Shown: positions 52,476-64,000 of the stretch, in pieces
How the letters are laid out: every line of letters starts with the position of its first letter
Position numbering within the stretch: position 1 is the stretch's first letter
Assembly: GCA_944390735.1 (NCBI GenBank)
Contig: CALXRL010000001.1
Location: 1-64,000, forward strand
DNA from: an uncultured Victivallales bacterium
GTDB taxonomy: Bacteria > Verrucomicrobiota > Lentisphaeria > Victivallales > UBA1829
Length of the DNA: 64,000 nt
Reading direction: 5' to 3'
The notes under the pieces: model-generated
Told to the model about the DNA's origin: nothing
Database searches by the model: none
What the model saw: only the letters and a program-made list of their open reading frames with translations
Program-made: the position numbers and the translations under genes

Positions 52476-53645
52476 ATGCGGGAACTTGAAACAAAAGACA
52501 AGGCGGAACGGGTGGCGGAAGGGAGTGTCTTCTCCTCCGGACTCGATACGCTGAGCAAATACCTGCGGGCGGTTTTCATGCTGCTCGTCGTGGTGATCGC
52601 CCTGCTGCTGATCTGGTTCTTCACGTTCAGCGGATTTTTCACGGTGAAACCCGATACCGCGGTCATTACGCTGCGGTTCGGCAAATTCCAGAACATCTAT
52701 ACGGAAAGCTGGCACTGGGTTTTCCCCTATCCGGTGAGCCGGATCATCAAGGTGCCGACGAATCCGCAGTCCATCGTCTCCTCGTCGTTCATGCCGGCGA
52801 ACAAGGCGCTGATTACCAATCGCAAGGCCGCGATGCAGAACGGTTCGCCCGAGGCGCTGAAGCCGGGGGTGGACGGTTATCTGCTGACCGCCGACGCCTG
52901 CATCATCCATACGGAGTGGAGAATGTCCTACCGGATCGTCGCTCCGAAGGCCTACTATGAAAACTGTCTGACGCCGGAATCGCCCGACAAGCCCGATGAT
53001 TCGTTCCGCGGACCGGTCGGCGAGGACCTCGGAACCCGCGGACCCCAGACGCTTCTGAAGGCGATTCTCGACGACTGCGTTCTCCGGGTGACCGCCCGGT
53101 GGAAGGTCAATGACATTCTTTACAACAAGACCGCGCAGTACATCGACGATGTGCAGGCCATGGTGGCAAAACGCGTCGGGGACATGAACATCGGGATCAA
53201 CATTGTGACGGTCGGACTGGATATCAAGAGTCCACCGCCGCAGACCATTGACGCGTTCGACGAGGTTCTCCAGGCTCAGATGGATCTGGACACCGCGCGG
53301 AAGAATGCCGAAGCGTATGCGCTGGAACAGAACGCGCTGGCCCAGTCGGAAAGCGCGAACATCATCGCGGAGGCGGAAACCTACAAGAAACGCATCGTTG
53401 CCGAAGTGGAGGCCGACGGCATCTATTTCAAGAGCATTCTGCAGGAGTATAAGAAGAGTCCTTCCTCCGTGATCGCCACGCTCTTCACACAGGTGATGGC
53501 GGACTCCATGTCCAACGTGAAGGACAAATTCATTCTCAATTCGCTGGGACAGGGACGCCAGGAGCTCAGGCTCAAACTGAATCCGGAACCGTTGACTCCG
53601 GAGGAAAAGAAGGAAGACAACAAGGACAAGGAGGCTGGCAAATGA
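52476..53645 (+). CDS. SPFH protein, HflK-like
   Basis: The protein has 389 residues with one membrane helix (about 33-58), the band-7 domain TVKPDTAVITLRFGKFQNIY and WHWVFPYPVSRIIKVPTNPQ, then NIGINIVTVGLDIKSPPPQT, and a coiled coil ARKNAEAYALEQNALAQSES that ends in a charged tail rich in Lys/Glu/Asp. The P1B-ATPase start overlaps its stop as ATGA, so the two are translated together. No FtsH gene is in the operon, so the partner is more likely the metal ATPase or the ABC permease than FtsH. This is inferred from context. Confidence 0.87.
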   Translation: MRELETKDKAERVAEGSVFSSGLDTLSKYLRAVFMLLVVVIALLLIWFFTFSGFFTVKPDTAVITLRFGKFQNIYTESWHWVFPYPVSRIIKVPTNPQSIVSSSFMPANKALITNRKAAMQNGSPEALKPGVDGYLLTADACIIHTEWRMSYRIVAPKAYYENCLTPESPDKPDDSFRGPVGEDLGTRGPQTLLKAILDDCVLRVTARWKVNDILYNKTAQYIDDVQAMVAKRVGDMNIGINIVTVGLDIKSPPPQTIDAFDEVLQAQMDLDTARKNAEAYALEQNALAQSESANIIAEAETYKKRIVAEVEADGIYFKSILQEYKKSPSSVIATLFTQVMADSMSNVKDKFILNSLGQGRQELRLKLNPEPLTPEEKKEDNKDKEAGK

Positions 53646-55609
53646 GCTGCTGCTGCGGACATGACCATGAACATGAACACCACCACGAGGATGCCACGCT
53701 CTGCGTCTGCGGTCAGCCGATGACCGAGGGCGCCGGCCATGGCAGATCCATGGGGCGCACCTCGTTCGCGGTTGCCGGTGGGTTCCTGATTTTGAATTCG
53801 TTCCTTCTGGAATGGCTGTTCCCGAGACAGGAATTCGCCTCCGAGATCAGTGCGATGCTCGGAGCCGTGATTCTGGCGCTTCCGATCATCTGGGTGGCAA
53901 TCAAGGACCTGCGGGTGGGACGCGTCTATATGAACGAGCTGGTGGCGATGGCGCTGCTTGCGGCGTTTGCCGGAGGTGTTTTCCGGGAGGCGGGCATCAT
54001 TGCGTTTTTCCTTCTGATCACCATCATCATTGAGTCGCGGACCGCATCGGGCGCGCAGCGCTCGATTGAAGAGCTGATCCGTCTGACGCCGCATACCGCG
54101 CGCCGTCTCGTGGACGGACAGTATGTGGAAGGCGAAGTGCTGGATCTGAAACTCGGCGACATCATCAATGTCCGTCCGGGCGAAAACTTCCCGATTGACG
54201 GCGAGATCGTATCCGGTCAGAGCGCGGTCAATCAGGCGTCCATCACCGGCGAATCGCTTCCGGTGGACAAGGGAGTCGGCGATGAGGTCTACGCCGGAAC
54301 CATGAACCTTTCCGGTTCCATCGACGTCAAAGTGACGAAGGTGGGCAACGATACCACCCTCGGCAAAGTCAAGGAGATGATTCTCGCGGCGGAAACCAGC
54401 AAGACGCCGATGGTCCGCATCATCGACAAATACGCCGGATTCTACACGCCGACGATTCTGATGCTCGCCACTCTCACCTGGTGGTTTTCCAATGGCGATA
54501 TGAACCGCGTCATCACACTGATGGTCATTGCCTGCCCGTGCGCGGTGGTGCTTGCCACGCCGACGGCGATTGTTGCGGCGATTGCCGCTGCGGCCCGTCT
54601 CGGGATTCTCATCAAGAATGTTGCGCATCTGGAGCTGGCCGCCAAGGTCAAGTGCTTTATTTTCGACAAGACCGGAACCCTGACGAAAGGGGAACTGGAA
54701 GTGGCCCGTCTGAAGCCGGTGGACGGCATCGAGCCGGCGGAGCTGCTGCTTGCGGCGGTTTCGGTGGAGACCGCCAGCAACCATCCGACGGCGCTTGCGC
54801 TTCAGCGTCTGGCCAAGGAGGTCGGCGTTTCTCCGGTCAGGGGAGAGGAATATCGCGAACTGCCCGGCAAAGGTGTGGAAGCAAAGATTCAGGGCGTGGA
54901 ATGTCTTGTGGGACGTCCCGCATGGCTGAGTTCGATGGGAATTGCGCTGCCGCATGATGAGAAAGAGGTCGAGGGCATGAGCGTTGTCGTGGTGGCCCGC
55001 GGAGGAAAATCCATCGGCTGGATCGGATTCCGGGATCAGATCCGTCCGGAGGCCGCCGAAATGGTGCGCAGTCTGAAGGCCGAAGGCATCCGCCAGTGCT
55101 CGATGGTGACCGGCGACAGAACGGCGGTTGCCGCCATGGTGGCCAGCCGGATCGGCATCGACGATTTCCGCGGCGACTGTCTGCCTCAGGGCAAAGTGGA
55201 ATATGTGGAACATGTCAAGGAACACAATATCGTGGCGTTTGTCGGTGACGGCGTGAACGATGCGCCTGCGCTTGCGGCTTCGGATCTCAGCATTGCGATG
55301 GGAGCCATCGGAAGCGACATCGCGATCAACAGCGCCTCGATTGCTCTGATGACGAACGATCTGCGCCGGATTCCGCTGCTGATCACGCTGTCCCGGAAAT
55401 CCGCGTCGGTGATCAATCAGAATCTTGCGTTCGGAATGATCTTTGTGATCTGCGGCATTGTGCTCTCGGTGTTCGGACAGATGACGCCGATTTTCGCCGC
55501 GATTCTGCATACGCTCAGTACGCTGATTGTGATATTCAACAGTGCGCGTCTTGTCCGGACGGGGGAGGAGATCACCCGGGCGGAGAACACGGCGGCGCTG
55601 AACCGCTGA
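53642..55609 (+). CDS. P1B-type heavy-metal translocating ATPase
   Basis: The protein has 655 residues. The N terminus is Cys- and His-rich (MSCCCGHDHEHEHHHED, then CVCGQP), a likely metal-binding tail. The catalytic core has TGES, CPC in the transmembrane metal site (residues 298-300, MVIACPCAVVLATP), the phosphorylation motif DKTGTLT (Asp342), and GDGVNDAPALAASDLSIAMG. SNHPTAL supplies the HP site. The CPC motif marks export of Cu+, Zn2+, Cd2+ or similar; which is not certain, though the His-rich tail favours Zn/Cd/Co. It is cotranslated with the HflK-like gene. No heavy-metal-associated (GMTCxxC) domain is present. Confidence 0.93.
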   Translation: MSCCCGHDHEHEHHHEDATLCVCGQPMTEGAGHGRSMGRTSFAVAGGFLILNSFLLEWLFPRQEFASEISAMLGAVILALPIIWVAIKDLRVGRVYMNELVAMALLAAFAGGVFREAGIIAFFLLITIIIESRTASGAQRSIEELIRLTPHTARRLVDGQYVEGEVLDLKLGDIINVRPGENFPIDGEIVSGQSAVNQASITGESLPVDKGVGDEVYAGTMNLSGSIDVKVTKVGNDTTLGKVKEMILAAETSKTPMVRIIDKYAGFYTPTILMLATLTWWFSNGDMNRVITLMVIACPCAVVLATPTAIVAAIAAAARLGILIKNVAHLELAAKVKCFIFDKTGTLTKGELEVARLKPVDGIEPAELLLAAVSVETASNHPTALALQRLAKEVGVSPVRGEEYRELPGKGVEAKIQGVECLVGRPAWLSSMGIALPHDEKEVEGMSVVVVARGGKSIGWIGFRDQIRPEAAEMVRSLKAEGIRQCSMVTGDRTAVAAMVASRIGIDDFRGDCLPQGKVEYVEHVKEHNIVAFVGDGVNDAPALAASDLSIAMGAIGSDIAINSASIALMTNDLRRIPLLITLSRKSASVINQNLAFGMIFVICGIVLSVFGQMTPIFAAILHTLSTLIVIFNSARLVRTGEEITRAENTAALNR

Positions 55610-55633
55610 ACTTAATCCGGGAGAGTTTCGAGA

Positions 55634-56791
55634 ATGGGAAACATAGTGGAAGCAGTCGGGCTTGTCAAGGAGTTCAGAGATTTCTGGAACCGGCCCAAGG
55701 CGAAGGCGGTCAACGATATCGACTTTGAAGTGCGGGAAGGAGAGGTGCTCGGCTTTCTGGGACCCAACGGATCCGGAAAGTCGACCACGATCAAAATGCT
55801 TCTCGGGCTCCTGTATCCGACGGGTGGACGGCTGACCGTGTTCGGCAAATCCCCGCGCGACGTCGACACCAAGCGCATGATCGGATATCTTCCGGAAGAG
55901 ACCTATCTCTACAAATACCTGACGGCGGCGGAGACGCTGGATTTCTTCGCCTCTCTCTTCAACCTTTCCGCGAAGGAGCGCCAGCTGCGGACGGAACAGC
56001 TGCTTGACATGGTCGGACTGGCTCATGCAAGAAACCGTCAGGTGGGAGAGTTCTCCAAGGGAATGGCGCGCCGTATCGGGCTTGCCCAGGCGATGATAAA
56101 CGACCCGTCGTTCCTGATCCTGGACGAGCCGACTTCCGGACTCGACCCGATCGGCTGCCGCGAGGTCAAGGACCTGATCCGTCTGCTGAAACGAAGAGGA
56201 AAAACCGTGATCGTGACCAGTCATCTGCTCGGCGATGTGGAAGATGTCTGCGACCGCGTCATCATTCTGTACGGCGGAAAGATCCGCGCAACGGGCTCTC
56301 TCTCGGAACTTCTCACGGTCAAGGGCTCCAGCCGCATCACGACGCCGGATCTGCCGGACGAGGCGATGGCGCAGATTACGGAGATCCTGAAACGGAACCT
56401 GAACGGACGTCCGTTCACAATCGATCATCCGCGCATGAGTCTGGAGGACTTCTTCCTGGATGTGGTGAACAAGGCAAAGCGGGAGAGCGTCGAAACTTCC
56501 GGCGCCACTTCCGGCGGCGAGATCGCGGAGTATCTTTCCGAGTCGGCTCCGCAGGTCTCCGCGGAGGAGAAACTCCATGTGCTTGCCGGAATCAGGTCCG
56601 AAGAGCCGCCGAAGCCGGAAGAGGAGAAAAAGCCGCTTCCGAAGATCGACACGGCAAAACTCACCAGCCTGGAGGAAGAGGACAAACCCGCGGAACCGGC
56701 TCCCCTCCCGCAGGACGCCGAGGCAAAACAGAAGCTCGAGGAAGCCAATAAGAAATTGATGGACATCCTTTCTTCCGGAAAAGAAAAATAA
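55634..56791 (+). CDS. ABC transporter ATP-binding protein (ABC-2 type) with long C-terminal tail
   Basis: The protein has 385 residues. Walker A is GPNGSGKST (about 48-56). The signature is EFSKGMARRIGLAQA, Walker B FLILDEPTSGLDPIG and the switch His TSHLLGDVEDV. The nucleotide-binding domain ends near residue 230. The last 110 residues are acidic and Pro/Glu-rich (EEPPKPEEEKKPLPKIDTAK, EEEDKPAEPAPLPQDAEAKQ), with no known domain. It would power the permease encoded 15 bases downstream. The closest general family is the NatA/CcmA export group. Confidence 0.9.
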   Translation: MGNIVEAVGLVKEFRDFWNRPKAKAVNDIDFEVREGEVLGFLGPNGSGKSTTIKMLLGLLYPTGGRLTVFGKSPRDVDTKRMIGYLPEETYLYKYLTAAETLDFFASLFNLSAKERQLRTEQLLDMVGLAHARNRQVGEFSKGMARRIGLAQAMINDPSFLILDEPTSGLDPIGCREVKDLIRLLKRRGKTVIVTSHLLGDVEDVCDRVIILYGGKIRATGSLSELLTVKGSSRITTPDLPDEAMAQITEILKRNLNGRPFTIDHPRMSLEDFFLDVVNKAKRESVETSGATSGGEIAEYLSESAPQVSAEEKLHVLAGIRSEEPPKPEEEKKPLPKIDTAKLTSLEEEDKPAEPAPLPQDAEAKQKLEEANKKLMDILSSGKEK

Positions 56792-56806
56792 GACGGGAAA
56801 CTGAAT

Positions 56807-58258
56807 ATGACATCCTTTCTGGCCATCGTGAAACTGACCTGCCGGAGCGCTGTCCGCTCGCATGTGTTCCAGTTTCTGCTGTTTCTTCTTCTGCTGGGGG
56901 TGTTCCTGGTGCCGAACACCATCAAGGGCGACGGAACGCCGTACAGTTACATTCAGGTCTCTCTGGAATACAGTTTGACCTTCATTACGGTCATGCTGAT
57001 GCTCTCGGGCGTCTGGCTCGGCTGTCAGACCATGACCGCCGATGTGGAGGACTGCCGGCTGCATCTGATTGTTGCGAAGCCGATCTCCCGTTATCTGGTC
57101 TGGCTCGGCAAGCTGACGGGGGTTCTGGTGGTGCTGACGACTCTGCTGATTATCGCATCGGCGGTGGTCTACGGATTCATCCTTTACCAGTATTCCCGTC
57201 AGGACTTCTCGAAGGAGGAGCGCGCACGCATGGAGAACGAGGTGCTGACCGGACGCCGGGCGTATCGTCCGGTTCTGCCGGACCTGCGGGAGATTACCAT
57301 GCGGGTGTTTCAGTCGAAGAAAAACGCATCCGGACAGCTGATCGCCAATACGCTGACCGGAAACGAGCGGGCCAAGGCGATTGATTCCGTCTACCGGGAG
57401 GTGGTCGCTTCCCTGGCGGAGATCCGTCCGGGACAGACCCGCATCTGGAACTATGAGAATCTGCCGGAGAATCTTGCGGAGAACAGTCGGTTCTATGTCC
57501 GCTACAAGGCCTACTCGGGATCGATTGAAGCCAATCAGAATCAGGAGCACGGCTACGGGTCCTGGGGGGCGCTCTTCACCTGGATCGAGCAGCCGGATAC
57601 CGCCGCTCTGAAGCCGGGGCAGAAACCGCCCGAACCGCAGAAACGGCAGGCTTTCCTGATGAAACCGCCGGAACAGATTCTCTGTTCCGCTGTCAATGAA
57701 TTTGAAATGCCGGCGGCGCGCGTGATTGTCGACGGAAAGGCCACGATCGGGTTCCAGAATCTCTCCCGCAACGGGAAGAATCTGTTCATCCAGGTCGCGG
57801 ACGGACCGGTGATCTATGTCAAGTATACGAGTTTTGCCGACAATTATGCGCGAGCGGTCTTCATGATGTTCCTCGGAATTGCCGCGGTGGTGATGATTGC
57901 CGTGTCGGTCTCCTCGTTCCTTTCGTTCCCGACGGCGATCTTCTTTGCGATTGCGTATATGCTGATCGGAATGTTCACGTCGTTCCTGATCGGTGCGGAA
58001 GCCGCTTACGGCAGTGTTGCCGCGATGCCCGCGATGGATCAGTACGGCTACTATATGAGCCGCATCATTGAGATGACGATCATTCCGGTTCAGAAATTCG
58101 GAATCTCGGGGCTGGTGGCCACCGGAGAGCTGATCGAGCTTTCGACGATCGGTTCCATTCTGCTGTTCCAGGTGATTTTGAAAGGCGTTCCGCTGGCTCT
58201 GCTCGGAGCCTGGCTGTACAACCGGCGCGAGCTGGCGCTCGCCGCAATCAAGAGGTAG
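56807..58258 (+). CDS. ABC-2 type permease with large extracytoplasmic domain
   Basis: The protein has 483 residues. Membrane segments lie at about 18-40, 47-70, 100-125, 350-375, 378-405 and 450-470. The region 130-345 is a large soluble insertion with many charged residues (QPDTAALKPGQKPPEPQKRQ), carried outside the membrane. FPTAIFFAIAYMLIGMFTSF and LSTIGSILLFQVILKGVPLA are typical permease segments. It pairs with the ATPase at 55634. The cargo is unknown. Only 3 bases separate it from the next gene. Confidence 0.82.
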   Translation: MTSFLAIVKLTCRSAVRSHVFQFLLFLLLLGVFLVPNTIKGDGTPYSYIQVSLEYSLTFITVMLMLSGVWLGCQTMTADVEDCRLHLIVAKPISRYLVWLGKLTGVLVVLTTLLIIASAVVYGFILYQYSRQDFSKEERARMENEVLTGRRAYRPVLPDLREITMRVFQSKKNASGQLIANTLTGNERAKAIDSVYREVVASLAEIRPGQTRIWNYENLPENLAENSRFYVRYKAYSGSIEANQNQEHGYGSWGALFTWIEQPDTAALKPGQKPPEPQKRQAFLMKPPEQILCSAVNEFEMPAARVIVDGKATIGFQNLSRNGKNLFIQVADGPVIYVKYTSFADNYARAVFMMFLGIAAVVMIAVSVSSFLSFPTAIFFAIAYMLIGMFTSFLIGAEAAYGSVAAMPAMDQYGYYMSRIIEMTIIPVQKFGISGLVATGELIELSTIGSILLFQVILKGVPLALLGAWLYNRRELALAAIKR

Positions 58259-58261
58259 AAA

Positions 58262-59887
58262 ATGGTTTTCAGACAATTGAAAATATGGGTTCCGGCGCTG
58301 GCGGCGCTCGCGCTTCTGATGGCGGCGACAGTCTTTGTCCAGGGGCGTCTGGACACCATCGTGAAGGAGGACAAACTTGTGGACGAGGCCAGCATCGAGG
58401 GACTGCCGCCGATGGTGGCGTTCACCACGGTGGCGCTGGGAGGATTCCGCGGCGTGCTCGCCGACCTGCTCTGGCTGAGAACAACAGGACTCCAGTCGCA
58501 GGGCAAGTATTTCGAAATGGTGCAGCTGGCCTCCTGGATCACCAAACTTCAGCCGAAATTCACCGGAGCCACCGCGTATCTGGCATGGAACATGGCGTAC
58601 AATATTTCCGTCACATTCACCTCTCCGGTGGACCGCTGGCGCTGGGTTCAGCGCGGAATTGAACTCATCCGCGACGAGGCTCTCAACTACAATGCCAACG
58701 ATCCCCTGCTTTACCGCGAACTCGGATGGATCTATCAGCATAAAATCGGCAATATGCTCGACGATGCGCAGAAGTATTATAAGTACATGATTGCCAAGGA
58801 GATGATGAAGGCTTACGGCGGGGTCGCCTCTCCCGACTGGGCCGCGCTCGCCGCCGCTCCGAAGACCAATGCCGAGTTCCGCCGGGCGCACGCGGACGAC
58901 CCCGCGCTCTGGGAGGAGATCCGCAAGGCCGGATTCGATGGACTGGATTCCCTTTCCAGAAAATTCCGTGAAATCGGATTTCTCCCGGACAATCTGATTC
59001 AGGTTCTGAAACCGGAGACCAAAGACGCGCTCGACACTTTCCTGCGAGCCAAATGGCTCCGCGAATACTACAAACTCCGTCCCGAGATCGTGATTCAGAT
59101 CAACAAGGATTACGGGGAGCTCGACTGGCGGCTTTCCGACTCCTTTGCCATTTACTGGGCGACTCTCGGAATCATGTACAGTCCGAAACGGGCGAGCATC
59201 GACTGCGACCGCATGATTACGCAGTCGCTCAAGGAGTCCTTTATTGCCGGGCGCATTCTCATTCCGGGCAAGGAGGTCACCATGAATTATATGCTTGTCC
59301 CGAATCTCGGGCTCGCGGATGCGGTGCGCAAAACCTATCTGGAAGCCTATGAGCGCAATCAGACCTCCACGTTCAAAAGCGCTCTGGACAATTTCATGAA
59401 AGATGCCATTGTCACATTGTACAGCTACGGACAGTACGGCAAATCCCGCGAATATTTCAACATCATGCGCAAGGAGCGCCGCGGCGATCCCGCTTACGCC
59501 GATTTCGACCGCTTCATCCTCAGGGAGTGGACCGAGGACATCAAGGACGGCAACTACAAGCAGGCCCATGATCTCATCAACGGACTGCTGTTCACCAGCT
59601 GTCTGCTGCTCGGCTATGACGATCCCGGCGGAGCCAACGCGCATCTTCAGCTGGCGAAGATGGCCTATGCAAAGTATTCCCATGAGTACAAGGATTCCAA
59701 GGACCGGGTGGGGCTTCCTCCGTTCGAAGTCATGAAATCCGAGATCGCCACCGCCTTCATCCGGAATTTCCCGACCCTTGCCGATCGCGTCAAGGCCTAT
59801 ATTACCGTGAATCGGGCGGAAGCTCAGGCCGAGGCTGCGGAAAACAAATCTTCCGACGGAGCCTCCGGGGAATCTTCCCGTCCGTAA
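58262..59887 (+). CDS. Membrane-anchored helical protein, TPR-like, unknown function
   Basis: The protein has 541 residues. One N-terminal membrane helix (about 9-28) is followed by the unusual block GLPPMVAFTTVALGGFRGVL and ADLLWLRTTGLQSQGKYFEM near residues 48-87, then VQLASWITKLQPKFTGATAY. The remaining part is mostly helical with repeat-like spacing (RELGWIYQHKIGNMLDDAQK), resembling tetratricopeptide folds, and ends in a charged tail. The family appears in PVC genomes beside ABC-2 permeases, but I cannot name a function. It is the last gene of the operon, 3 bases after the permease. Confidence 0.7.
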   Translation: MVFRQLKIWVPALAALALLMAATVFVQGRLDTIVKEDKLVDEASIEGLPPMVAFTTVALGGFRGVLADLLWLRTTGLQSQGKYFEMVQLASWITKLQPKFTGATAYLAWNMAYNISVTFTSPVDRWRWVQRGIELIRDEALNYNANDPLLYRELGWIYQHKIGNMLDDAQKYYKYMIAKEMMKAYGGVASPDWAALAAAPKTNAEFRRAHADDPALWEEIRKAGFDGLDSLSRKFREIGFLPDNLIQVLKPETKDALDTFLRAKWLREYYKLRPEIVIQINKDYGELDWRLSDSFAIYWATLGIMYSPKRASIDCDRMITQSLKESFIAGRILIPGKEVTMNYMLVPNLGLADAVRKTYLEAYERNQTSTFKSALDNFMKDAIVTLYSYGQYGKSREYFNIMRKERRGDPAYADFDRFILREWTEDIKDGNYKQAHDLINGLLFTSCLLLGYDDPGGANAHLQLAKMAYAKYSHEYKDSKDRVGLPPFEVMKSEIATAFIRNFPTLADRVKAYITVNRAEAQAEAAENKSSDGASGESSRP

Positions 59888-59952
59888 AAATTTCCGCTTT
59901 GAACCATTCACCATCGCCGCCGGAAGCGGTGGAACGCATCGTGTTCCGACGG

Positions 59953-61083
59953 TCAGCGGGATGCGGCGCGGAGTTCCTCCGCAAGTTCGCGTGCGGCGTT
60001 GGAAAGAAATCTTCCCGCATTGAGGCGAATTTCTTCAAAGGGGAGTCCGGCAGGGGTGGCGGCTTTTGTTTTCCAGAAGAGCGGGGCCGGCGATTCGCGG
60101 GAACCCTGCACCGCTCCGGAAAGCAGAATGCACTTGACGCGGTGCTTCCGGCAGACCTCCGCGATTTCCGCACACAGTTTTCCGTGTTCCGTCTGCGGAT
60201 CGGTACAGCCTTCCCCGGTGATGACATAATCCGTTCCGGGAAGAAGCGATTCAAAACGGGTGGTCTCCATGGCGAGACGTGCGCCCGATTCGGTTCGGGC
60301 GGAGCAGAACGCGCGCAGTCCCATGCCGAGTCCGCCGGCGGCTCCGTCACCGGGCTGATCGGCCCGGTCGATCATTCCCTGACGGATCAGAACGGAGGAG
60401 AGATTCCGCAACCCCTCCTCCAGAAGAGGAATCATTTCGGGTGTGGCGCCCTTCTGCGGAGCAAATACCGCGGCGGCGCCCTCTTCGCCCAGCAGAGGAT
60501 TGGTGACATCCGAGGCAATGCGGATGTCACAGCGGAACAGGGAGCGGTCGACGGCGCTTCCGTCAATGTGCGCAATCTTCCTCAGCGACTCCCCGCGGAG
60601 GGCGTGCAGTGGACGATTCTGGGCATCGTAGAAGCGATAGCCGAGCGCTTCCGCCATTCCGGCTCCGCCATCGACCGTGGCGCTTCCACCGATTCCTATG
60701 AGCATGTTTTCCGCTCCCTGTTTCAGAGCTTCGAGGATCAATTCTCCGGTTCCGTACGTGGATGTGCGCATCGGATTTCGTTCTTCTGGCGTCAGGAGGG
60801 TCATGCCGGATGCCGCCGCCATTTCCAGAATGGCGGTCCTCCCAGCCATGCCGTAGAACGCGGAGACGGGCCGTCCGAGCGGGTCGTGGACACGGACGCT
60901 TTCGCGTCTTCCGTTCAGGGCGCGAGTGAGAGCATCCACGGTGCCTTCCCCGCCGTCCGCGAGCGGAAGAGAGAGAATTTCCGCCTCCGGAAGAACCGAG
61001 GCAATGGCTTTCGATTCGATTTCGGCCGCCTGTTCCGCCGTCAGAGTGCCTTTGAATTTATCGGGTGCGATCAGAAGTCTCAT
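59953..61083 (-). CDS. Glycerate kinase (GlxK/GarK type)
   Basis: The protein has 376 residues. The opening MRLLIAPDKFKGTLTAEQAA and SLPLADGGEGTVDALTRALN are the type signature of glycerate kinase I. MLIGIGGSATVDGGAGMAEA and DRADQPGDGAAGGLGMGLRA follow. It phosphorylates glycerate to 2- or 3-phosphoglycerate. The start at 61083 is the one that overlaps the upstream stop as ATGA and where similarity begins. Translationally coupled to the iron-type dehydrogenase, suggesting a shared route, for instance hydroxy-acid or aldehyde breakdown into glycolysis. Confidence 0.92.
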   Translation of the reverse strand: MRLLIAPDKFKGTLTAEQAAEIESKAIASVLPEAEILSLPLADGGEGTVDALTRALNGRRESVRVHDPLGRPVSAFYGMAGRTAILEMAAASGMTLLTPEERNPMRTSTYGTGELILEALKQGAENMLIGIGGSATVDGGAGMAEALGYRFYDAQNRPLHALRGESLRKIAHIDGSAVDRSLFRCDIRIASDVTNPLLGEEGAAAVFAPQKGATPEMIPLLEEGLRNLSSVLIRQGMIDRADQPGDGAAGGLGMGLRAFCSARTESGARLAMETTRFESLLPGTDYVITGEGCTDPQTEHGKLCAEIAEVCRKHRVKCILLSGAVQGSRESPAPLFWKTKAATPAGLPFEEIRLNAGRFLSNAARELAEELRAASR

Positions 61084-62300
61084 TTTGTCCAGACATGATC
61101 CAGAACGTCGTGAAAAACGGTTCTGCACTCGTCCGCCCGGATTTTCCGAGGGGCGCTTTCCAGTTTGACCGGATTCTGTGCCGCATCCTCCGCCAGTTTG
61201 TCGATCCATTCCGTTCCGGTGCCGGTCAGTTCTCCCGGATGCACGGTTCCTCCGCAGGATTCGATCCATTTTTCATAGGAGCCAATCACCTCTTCGGGCG
61301 TGCTTCCGGGAAAGACTCCGGAGAGGAGCATGGTCTGTTTGCGCACCGGTTCCTCCCGCAGATAGAACTTCCAGAAGTGCGGAAGAAGCGCCGCGACCGC
61401 CGCGCCGTGCGGTGCCTTCCCGCAGAAGGAGAAACTCAGAAGATGCGGAAGAGAAGTCGGAGAAAAGCGGATCGCCATTCCCGCCAGCGTCGCCGCCGCC
61501 GAGAGTTCCGCCCGCTCCTCCTGATCCTCCGGCACCCGCAGAACTTTCGGAAGCGCGGACACGATCATCCGCGTCGCCTGCAACGCCCATTGCACAACCG
61601 CGGGATGAGCTTCGCAGCCGCGGAAGTTCAGCAGACTTTCCACGGCATGAACCAGTGCGTCGAATGCTGTCACGCGCGTCAGATTCTGCGGCGCGCTGAC
61701 CGTGAACATCGGTTCCACCGCGGCGAGTTCCGGAATGATCGCCGGATCGGCAATCAGTTTTTTCACTCCGGTTCCGGCATCAATGATGTTGGCGTAGCAT
61801 GTGACTTCCGATCCGGTCCCGGCGGTGGTCGGAACCGCCAGAATGCGCCGGAACGTCCGGCCGGGAAAGGCGGAGGTGGCCGCTTCCCTGCCGAAGAGCC
61901 TGTCGATGTCCATGCCTGTCTGCCAGGAGAGATAGGCGGCTTTTGCCGCATCCATGACGCTGCCTCCGCCGACGGCAATGACCGCATCCGGCTTTTCCGT
62001 GTCCAGACAGGCCACAATCCGCCGGACACAGTCGGTATCGGGTTCCGGAGGCACGTTCTCAAAGCGCGGCATGTTCAGATCCAGCTTCCCGAAAAGCGGC
62101 GACTGAAGAAAAGCGTGAAACGCTCCGCACCGGTGGACGGATTCTCCCCCCATGACCAGAAGAATGGTTTGATACTCCTTGAGCATGATGTGCGCGGAAA
62201 GCTGATCCAGCGCGTCGTAGCCGAAGGCAATGAGCGTTTCCTGACAGGTGTCCATCATGGTTTGGGCGTTGAAGAGTGTCTCTGTGATTCCGGTACTCAT
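61080..62300 (-). CDS. Iron-containing alcohol dehydrogenase family protein
   Basis: The protein has 406 residues. The NAD-binding GGGS is in DAVIAVGGGSVMDAAKAAYL. TTAGTGSEVTCYANIID is the second conserved stretch, and the metal-site His/Asp residues lie in VTAFDALVHAVESLL and LPHLLSFSFCGKAPHGAAVA. The start at 62300 has GGAAAGGAA 6 bases upstream; an earlier in-frame ATG overlaps the promoter. The substrate is unknown; hydroxy-acid, lactaldehyde and sugar-alcohol enzymes occur in the family. Forms an operon with the glycerate kinase. Confidence 0.88.
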   Translation of the reverse strand: MSTGITETLFNAQTMMDTCQETLIAFGYDALDQLSAHIMLKEYQTILLVMGGESVHRCGAFHAFLQSPLFGKLDLNMPRFENVPPEPDTDCVRRIVACLDTEKPDAVIAVGGGSVMDAAKAAYLSWQTGMDIDRLFGREAATSAFPGRTFRRILAVPTTAGTGSEVTCYANIIDAGTGVKKLIADPAIIPELAAVEPMFTVSAPQNLTRVTAFDALVHAVESLLNFRGCEAHPAVVQWALQATRMIVSALPKVLRVPEDQEERAELSAAATLAGMAIRFSPTSLPHLLSFSFCGKAPHGAAVAALLPHFWKFYLREEPVRKQTMLLSGVFPGSTPEEVIGSYEKWIESCGGTVHPGELTGTGTEWIDKLAEDAAQNPVKLESAPRKIRADECRTVFHDVLDHVWTK

Positions 62301-62334
62301 GGCAATTTCCTTTCCGTTCAGATTCCTGGAAATA

Positions 62335-62363
62335 AAGGTACAGTAAGATTCCGTTTTTTTCAA
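62335..62363 (-). promoter_or_regulatory. Promoter of the dehydrogenase-glycerate kinase operon
   Basis: On the minus strand, TTGAAA (62363-62358) and TACCTT (62340-62335) are 17 bases apart, with a leader of about 28 bases to the ATG at 62300. It lies back to back with the promoter at 62383. Confidence 0.5.
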
Positions 62364-62382
62364 CCGGGAGAGCGGAATTTTC

Positions 62383-62412
62383 TTGATTTCATCCGGCGCG
62401 GGCATATATTAT
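62383..62412 (+). promoter_or_regulatory. Promoter of the phosphohexomutase pair
   Basis: TTGATT (62383-62388) is followed after 16 bases by TATATT (62405-62410) or after 18 by TATTAT (62407-62412). The predicted start near 62418 lies past the ATG at 62411 and so supports the ATG at 62438. Confidence 0.5.
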
Positions 62413-62437: not shown

Positions 62438-63802
62438 ATGAGATTTCTTCGACTCGGTCCGTCGGGCATTCGCGGAGCCGTCGGAACCGCGCTGACCTGT
62501 CAGCTGGCCATCCGCTATGCCTCGGCGTTCGGAACCTGGCTGGGGGGCGGAACGGTCGGCGTGGCCATCGACTCGCGAACCTCGTCCCCGATGTTCAAGG
62601 CGGCGTGTCTTTCGGGATTGCTCTCCTGCGGGTGCGATGTGATGGATTTCGGAATCTGTCCCGCGCCGGTGCTGCATTTCGGCGTCCGGAAACTGGGGCT
62701 CGACGGGGGGCTTCTGATCGGGCCCGGTCACCATCAGGCCGGATGGAATGCCATTGTTCCGTTCTCCTCGCGCGGCTCCTGTCTTTCCCCCATTCAGAGC
62801 CAGGAGATGCTGGATATCTATCACGGCGGAATCTTCTCCTCGGCAAAATGGAACCGGATCGGCAGGATTCTTCCGGCGCCGGTCTCCATTCTGGACGACT
62901 ATGTGGAGGATCTCGCCGGGCTGGTCGACGGAAACGCAATCGCCGCACGGCGCTTCCGCGTGGTCATGGATTTCTGCAACGGATCCGGATCCGTTCTTCG
63001 GGAGCGTCTCGCGGAGCGCTTCGGAATCGATTCCGTGCCGATCAACGACATCCTTTCCGGATCCCTTCCGCATGATCCGGAGCCCAGACCGAGAAGTTCG
63101 GCCCAGGTGAAATCCATCATGCTGCCGCTGCGCGCCGACGCCGGATTTGTCTTCAGCAGCGATGCGGGGCGCGTCGCCATTGTCACGGATACGGGGGAGA
63201 CCCTCTCCGAAGAATACACCGTTCCGATTGTCGCGGACAATCTTCTTGCCAAGTCTCCGAAAGGCTCCGTGGTGGTGACCAACTGGTGCTCCACCAAAAC
63301 CCTGGACATGGTCGTTGCCGGACATGGCGGCGTGATCTGCAAAGGACAGACCGGAGAGGCGTATACCATTGACCTGATGCTGGAAAAAAATGCAATTCTC
63401 GCGGGGGAAGGCAGCGGAAGCGTGGCCGTCGCATCAAGCGGAACGTGCGGGTTCGATGCGTTCGCCGCCATGATCCTGACTCTGGAATCCATGGCGATGA
63501 AACGCAAGCGCTCCTCCGATATTGCAAGCGAGCTGCCGCGCTGGCACATTACCAAACTGTCGCTTCCGTGCCAGTCGTTCAAGGCGTACTCCGCGCTGCG
63601 CTCGCTCAAGGGACTCTTTCCGGACGCCGTCATGACCGAGTGCGACGGCCTCCGGTTCGACTGGCCCGACGGATGGGTCCATGTGCGAATGTCTATGACC
63701 GAACCCATTCTCCGGATGATTTTTGAATGGCGCGATCCGAACGAGGCCGTCAACAAGGTCACACACATCCGCGCCGCGGTGGAAAGGCTGATTGCAAAAT
63801 GA
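62438..63802 (+). CDS. Phosphohexomutase-family protein lacking the catalytic serine
   Basis: The protein has 454 residues, close to bacterial phosphoglucosamine mutases (about 445). The opening FLRLGPSGIRGAVGTALTCQ and the phosphate loop HVRMSMTEPILRM at the end place it in the alpha-D-phosphohexomutase superfamily. The active loop that normally reads TASHNP is here GPGHHQ (residues 95-100), with Gly97 in place of the phosphorylated Ser. The metal loop DGDGDR is SSDAGR (240-245), with two of three Asp lost. The sugar loop is GEGSG. It is probably not an active mutase. Its stop overlaps the start of a second, canonical copy. Confidence 0.82.
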   Translation: MRFLRLGPSGIRGAVGTALTCQLAIRYASAFGTWLGGGTVGVAIDSRTSSPMFKAACLSGLLSCGCDVMDFGICPAPVLHFGVRKLGLDGGLLIGPGHHQAGWNAIVPFSSRGSCLSPIQSQEMLDIYHGGIFSSAKWNRIGRILPAPVSILDDYVEDLAGLVDGNAIAARRFRVVMDFCNGSGSVLRERLAERFGIDSVPINDILSGSLPHDPEPRPRSSAQVKSIMLPLRADAGFVFSSDAGRVAIVTDTGETLSEEYTVPIVADNLLAKSPKGSVVVTNWCSTKTLDMVVAGHGGVICKGQTGEAYTIDLMLEKNAILAGEGSGSVAVASSGTCGFDAFAAMILTLESMAMKRKRSSDIASELPRWHITKLSLPCQSFKAYSALRSLKGLFPDAVMTECDGLRFDWPDGWVHVRMSMTEPILRMIFEWRDPNEAVNKVTHIRAAVERLIAK

Positions 63803-64000
63803 GTGTTCGACGGAAAAATTTGAAAATCGGAGTGAGCGGCGTCCGCGGCATCGTGGGCGAGACGCTTTCTCCGGCCCTGGCCGCCGATTTCGCCGCCTCG
63901 TTCGGCGGCTACACCGGTCACGGAATCGTGATCGTCGGCCGCGATACCCGTCCCAGCGGGGAGATGATTGAAAATGCGGTCGTTTCCGGACTTCTCGCTT
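63799..64000 (+). CDS. Phosphohexomutase (GlmM/ManB family), 5' part
   Basis: Only the first 67 codons lie in the window. KIGVSGVRGIVGETLSPALA and IVIVGRDTRPSGEM are the standard N-terminal motifs of phosphoglucosamine/phosphomannomutases, and the conserved GRDTRPSG is intact, unlike the upstream copy (AIDSRTSS). The ATG overlaps the previous stop as ATGA. The catalytic serine loop lies beyond the window edge. Confidence 0.85.
   Translation, partial: MSVRRKNLKIGVSGVRGIVGETLSPALAADFAASFGGYTGHGIVIVGRDTRPSGEMIENAVVSGLLA

Follow-up and report, generated by a model that had tools for sequence, protein, structure and literature searches.

Phosphohexomutases are textbook single-polypeptide enzymes. 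The described system closest to the tandem gene pair presented here is the archaeal-type GlmM or PMM/PGM (TIGR03990), represented by the T. kodakarensis PGM (9du5) and the P. horikoshii PMM/PGM (1wqa), with which the upstream gene of the pair (P1) shares the four-domain fold at a TM score of 0.89-0.90 and 28-29% identity. In contrast to these enzymes, P1 falls below the 439-bit curated cutoff of the family and lacks the phosphoserine and two of the metal-binding Asp residues, while the downstream gene (P2), at 438.2 bits, has its active site intact. Vertebrate PGM5 (aciculin) is another inactive member of the superfamily, as P1 appears to be, and the herring protein binds substrate normally even though it is inactive (PMC7761743), so the phosphohexomutase fold can lose its activity and keep substrate binding. 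Unlike P1, however, PGM5 retains the Ser and the metal loop, is not paired with an active twin in a two-gene unit, and is related to PGM1 without being orthologous to P1. In two other systems, the AdoMetDC prozyme of trypanosomes (PMC5201418) and deoxyhypusine synthase (PMC3663545), a dead paralogue is known to activate the working enzyme. Both paralogues are catalytically dead, as P1 appears to be, and conserved with a live twin, but they have other folds and come from other organisms, and the complex and its activation, demonstrated there, are only proposed here for P1 and P2. Lastly, the Slr1334-type glucose-1,6-bisphosphate synthase (cd05800; PMC9426568) is related to the phosphohexomutases and provides mutases with their bisphosphate activator; it has been shown to be an active phosphotransferase, whereas P1 is without the residues for such a transfer. 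No description of a P1-P2-like pair was found in the literature searched, and wider searching turned up PGM5 and some unrelated cases.

The window, a 64,000-nucleotide stretch of a contig from an uncultured Victivallales bacterium, holds P1 on its + strand at 62438..63802, a span that counts the stop codon and encodes 454 amino acids. The frame runs uninterrupted from the ATG at 62438 to the TGA at 63800-63802; a second possible start lies at an in-frame ATG at 62411, and the orthologues start at the 62438 site (MRFLRL). Pfam PGM_PMM domains I-III score above cutoff and domain IV slightly under it (19.7 bits vs 23.1), and the top NCBIfam match is TIGR03990 (archaeal GlmM) at 329.7 bits. AlphaFold2 predicts the standard four-domain fold (pLDDT 90.6), for which the top PDB match in Foldseek is the Thermococcus PGM 9du5 (TM 0.90). 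P1 thus has the alpha-D-phosphohexomutase superfamily fold, and the full-length frame with a mutase fold reported by the initial annotation is confirmed by Pfam, AlphaFold2 and Foldseek alike.

The active-site loops tell which part of this enzyme has been lost. In P1, GPGHHQ (residues 95-100; 62720..62737, +) replaces the TASHNP motif, and alignment to PDB relatives places Gly97 at the phosphoserine position, so that the phosphorylatable Ser of T/S-x-S-H-N-P is absent. Instead of the DxDxDR metal loop (DGDADR), P1 has SSDAGR (residues 240-245; 63155..63172, +), from which the first and third Asp are gone and in which the middle Asp and the Arg are retained. The sugar-binding loop AGEGSGS (residues 322-328; 63401..63421, +) and the phosphate-binding loop RMSMTEPILR (residues 417-426; 63686..63715, +) both still conform to their motifs, GExSG (as GEGSGS) and RxSxTEP (as RMSMTEP). 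GPGHHQ, SSDAGR and RMSMTEPILR are therefore as the initial annotation had read them, with GEGSGS retained as well, and its description of the first copy as apparently dead agrees with the loss of the phosphoserine and of two of the three metal-ligand Asp. To judge by these residues, ordinary mutase activity is very probably absent from P1.

The start codon of P2 overlaps the P1 stop codon in an ATGA (63799..63802, +). The window covers about 67 codons of this archaeal-GlmM-type mutase (63799..64000, +), and the whole gene, which had been singled out for retrieval, was recovered from the contig at C1:63799-65181 (L005:7800-9182). Its catalytic loops are complete (TASHNP, DPDGDR, GAEGGSGG and RQSNTEP), so both the overlap and the intact second mutase hold, and its predicted fold is confident (pLDDT 89.4). 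Another downstream copy scores 479.7 bits against TIGR03990. Among 87 tandem loci, the downstream start lies within -30 to +60 bases in 65, and a four-base overlap is possible in 36. Since the same genome also encodes an ordinary PMM/PGM and a bacterial GlmM, both with intact motifs, P1 and P2 constitute an extra pair.

When the catalytic residues were surveyed across the upstream (U) and downstream (D) copies, the complete set of phosphoserine and three Asp was found in none of 103 upstream proteins, and the full set including the metal-loop Arg in 89 of 94 downstream proteins. The domain III general-base Lys was left out of this survey, its column not being reliably alignable. At the Ser site, 90 of the upstream proteins have Gly, 10 have Ser, and Thr, Ile and Ala occur once each; all 10 Ser-carrying copies have Asn or Thr at the first metal Asp (Asp1). 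Loss of the Ser is not universal, because the upstream copies of one Armatimonadota subclade retain it, with Asn at Asp1, and these copies might be active. Among the Armatimonadota, some upstream copies lack the Ser alone (TAGHND with DADGDR) and others Asp1 alone; the Verrucomicrobiota copies have lost the Ser and two Asp; these differing losses indicate that the same function was disabled through different residues in different lineages. The metal loop has eroded differently by subclade, to NDS, SDG, DDD or NDD.

P1 could still be an active isozyme, a mutase working through another phosphorylated residue or by direct transfer from a bisphosphate. The S108A mutant of PaPMM/PGM, as cited in PMC6096347, is reported to keep some activity, so that loss of the Ser alone need not abolish mutase activity, and Asp2, the Arg and the sugar and phosphate loops are all retained in P1. 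However, three of the four elements (phosphoserine, Asp1, Asp2, Asp3) are missing from 68 of the 103 upstream copies, the S69A mutant of AGM1 is fully inactive (PMC6096347), and 40 of 68 Verrucomicrobiota upstream copies have Gly two positions before the phosphoserine, where the Thr/Ser is reported as never missing among 20,000 relatives searched (PMC7761743). We consider an active isozyme very improbable.

What the upstream copies keep is what would contact a ligand. All 103 have the His that follows the Ser site, the Arg of the metal loop and the acidic residue of the sugar loop; the loop-0 Arg is present in 99/103, the P-loop Arg in every covered sequence and Asp2 in nearly all, and the P-loop Thr is kept too. 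The inactive AGM1 S69A protein still holds Glc-1,6-bisphosphate in the absence of metal, with R33 (the loop-0 Arg), H70 and R289 binding the 1-phosphate (PMC6096347), and by motif these three residues appear to correspond to the loop-0 Arg, the His and the metal-loop Arg retained in U.

The exceptions to the full set among the downstream copies are one genus (g8) with three genomes and two Armatimonadota. In g8 (L011, L012 and L013, from G017, G023 and G010) P2 is also degenerate, with TASQHP, DPDGDS and a damaged P-loop, RKSYSES; both frames are intact at an NG86 dN/dS of 0.03-0.1, and U is retained, which there cannot simply assist a normal mutase. In the two Armatimonadota, relatives of a Chthonomonadales MAG (L187 and L188), the situation is reversed: D is without the Ser (TSGHQP and TGGSQP), and U still has the Ser, its first metal position being Asn. 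A role swap between U and D is possible in these two.

Orthologues of P1 were found in about 28 of 61 related genomes, at 41-94% identity and almost all adjoining P2. Within the class, P1 is present at E<=1e-45 in 59 of 198 genomes, with one further fragment in G047 (about 60 in total), and P2 accompanies it in all but two of them (G043 and G124); in both the contig ends at the locus, G124 showing the P2 start at the contig edge, and in G002 P2 is fragmentary. Only one of the 198 genomes, the MAG G067, has D with no detectable U. In other classes of the phylum, 14 sampled genomes carry P1 with P2 adjoining. Carriers with names include Victivallis vadensis DSM 14823, Lentisphaerae bacterium WC36 and Lentisphaerota strain zth2. 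The tandem pair also occurs in the Chthonomonadales MAG (L103) and in many of its relatives (many Armatimonadota), in some of which unrelated genes sit between U and D. Conservation of the Ser-less copy as a neighbour across Lentisphaerae, which the initial annotation had proposed to look for, is thus what we observe, and it extends far beyond that group. By contrast, the pair was not seen in the sampled Planctomycetota, where 27 of 149 genomes have a single strong match, and genomes from the phyla of the Fibrobacteria record (57/61) and of the Eisenbacteria record (7/7) have one strong match each. The genome-wide peptide scan used two U-type patterns only and may have overlooked distant members in other phyla. 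An assembly chimera was ruled out: the pair is found again in assemblies made independently, two complete chromosomes (CP085689 and CP071032) carry it, and P1 is present in the isolate genome of V. vadensis DSM 14823 (L094).

Across the relatives no conserved gene flanks the pair, and the pathway cannot be read from operon context. In the window, genes for a glycerate kinase and an iron-containing alcohol dehydrogenase (59953-62405, -) diverge from the pair, beside which they are not conserved in relatives. Farther away, a 2163-codon open frame (53423-59914, -) lies antisense to at least two plausible + strand genes (56807-58258 and 58262-59887) and is probably a base-composition artefact. A gene for a HAD-family phosphatase directly follows P2 in some Victivallis-type loci whose P2 is separated, as it does in G045 (L037, L038, L039 and L048).

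In a careful tree of 74 rows, from which both active-site loops had been removed, the upstream copies all form one clade (support 100/99); in a quick tree of 103 rows the support is 98. Single copies branch outside the pair lineage, except for the G067 protein (L157), which falls among the downstream copies. Because the upstream copies form one clade, the pairs go back to one ancient duplication and not to repeated local ones, and the tree shows P1 and P2 to be products of a single tandem duplication of an archaeal-GlmM-type mutase. In G360 there are two pairs (L155 and L156): one is of the genome's own type, and the other groups with the Armatimonadota type in both the U and the D parts of the 103-row tree. 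Either the pair was transferred as a unit, or the MAG is contaminated.

Between species of the same genus, the NG86 dN/dS of P1 is 0.03-0.13. Its dN is lower than that of P2 in 9/9 within-genus pairs, although these pairs are not independent and dS is near or above 1 in most. No interrupted copy of P1 was found among those examined, other than across a run of N in G048, where an apparent frameshift is that run and not a broken gene. We therefore give next to no credence to P1 as a decaying duplicate retained by chance: the lost catalytic residues and the apparent frameshift would speak for decay, but a single clade kept over two phyla and evolving at such rates rules it out. This bears out the initial annotation, which had favoured a function over decay on the strength of the intact frame and had named nonsense mutations in relatives as the sign of drift. 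P1 and P2 share with the prozymes one feature, an apparently dead paralogue kept with its active twin under purifying selection.

Eight sites (S50, Y155, R217, R219, C284, K302, F339 and Y384) are fixed in 85-100% of U and nearly absent in D, so P1 gained constraints of its own. These constraints could reflect a changed reaction, in which the P1-specific residues Y155, R217, R219, K302 and F339, together with the invariant His, build a different active site in the same substrate pocket, for example that of a sugar-phosphate epimerase, a lyase or a bisphosphate phosphatase acting in sequence with P2. The retained sugar loop, P-loop and His fit such an enzyme, as does a dN below that of the active copy, and two consecutive pathway steps would equally account for co-translation. 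On the other hand, P1 has no recognisable alternative catalytic set, a metal loop that varies by subclade is unlike a conserved new metal site, and pathway genes are not conserved next to the pair. A changed reaction is in our view unlikely, if the most serious of the alternatives.

The slow evolution of P1 and its retention beside its twin over two phyla instead suggest a non-catalytic partner or regulator. A partnership is likely given that the pair recurs although its flanking genes change, that genomes in which U and D sit on separate contigs (Victivallis G038, G052 and G057, and also G450) still retain both, and that where one is absent from a lineage, so is the other. The U and D distance matrices are also correlated (r=0.75, reached in 0/2000 permutations), a value to which shared species history contributes. 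Counting against it, co-inheritance is partly that shared history, and G067 has D without U. All in all, it is fairly probable that P1 acts together with P2. P1 might also moonlight outside sugar metabolism, in a structural or signalling role such as those of PGM5/aciculin or of GlmM bound to CdaA, and merely be co-expressed with P2. PGM5 offers a precedent of an inactive relative that still binds substrate, and GlmM-CdaA complexes are among the Foldseek matches of P1, but such a role would not require ligand-contact residues to remain fixed, and P2 goes with P1 even at separated loci. We regard moonlighting as improbable.

Thus we hypothesize, with moderate confidence, that P1 is a selectively kept ancient pseudoenzyme, a non-catalytic partner of P2 that binds a sugar phosphate or bisphosphate. 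P1 has lost the residues for phosphoserine transfer and would be inactive, but its retained pocket residues could still accommodate a sugar phosphate or bisphosphate, and it would work with the co-translated, active P2, in all likelihood within a hetero-oligomer. Hexose 1,6-bisphosphate primes phosphohexomutases (PMC9426568), and a protein that binds the bisphosphate but does not transfer it is therefore a plausible partner; having bound hexose (1,6-bis)phosphate, P1 might tune, stabilise or prime P2. That the ligand is a hexose bisphosphate is a tentative suggestion. Of the roles put forward by the initial annotation in place of decay, namely a regulatory subunit, a hetero-oligomer or a changed reaction, the conserved pair and its low dN/dS support the set as a whole. 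Somewhat more doubtful is a hetero-oligomeric, two-subunit phosphohexomutase whose own intermediate would gate mutase flux: a conserved Ser-less subunit would bind hexose 1,6-bisphosphate and either pass it on to the catalytic subunit or sense it on that subunit's behalf. The origin of such an enzyme would lie in an ancestor common to the Armatimonadota and Verrucomicrobiota that carry the pair, unless it spread from one phylum to the other.

P1 and P2 make up a probable pseudoenzyme-enzyme pair, and the literature searched yielded no description of one in bacteria for this family. For annotation the pair carries a warning, as homologues of P1 match the Pfam mutase families and would be named mutases, and none examined has a complete active site. 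If our reading of P1 is correct, the pair would represent pseudoenzyme control in bacterial central sugar metabolism, and would provide a clean system for what persists in an enzyme when selection acts only on ligand binding.
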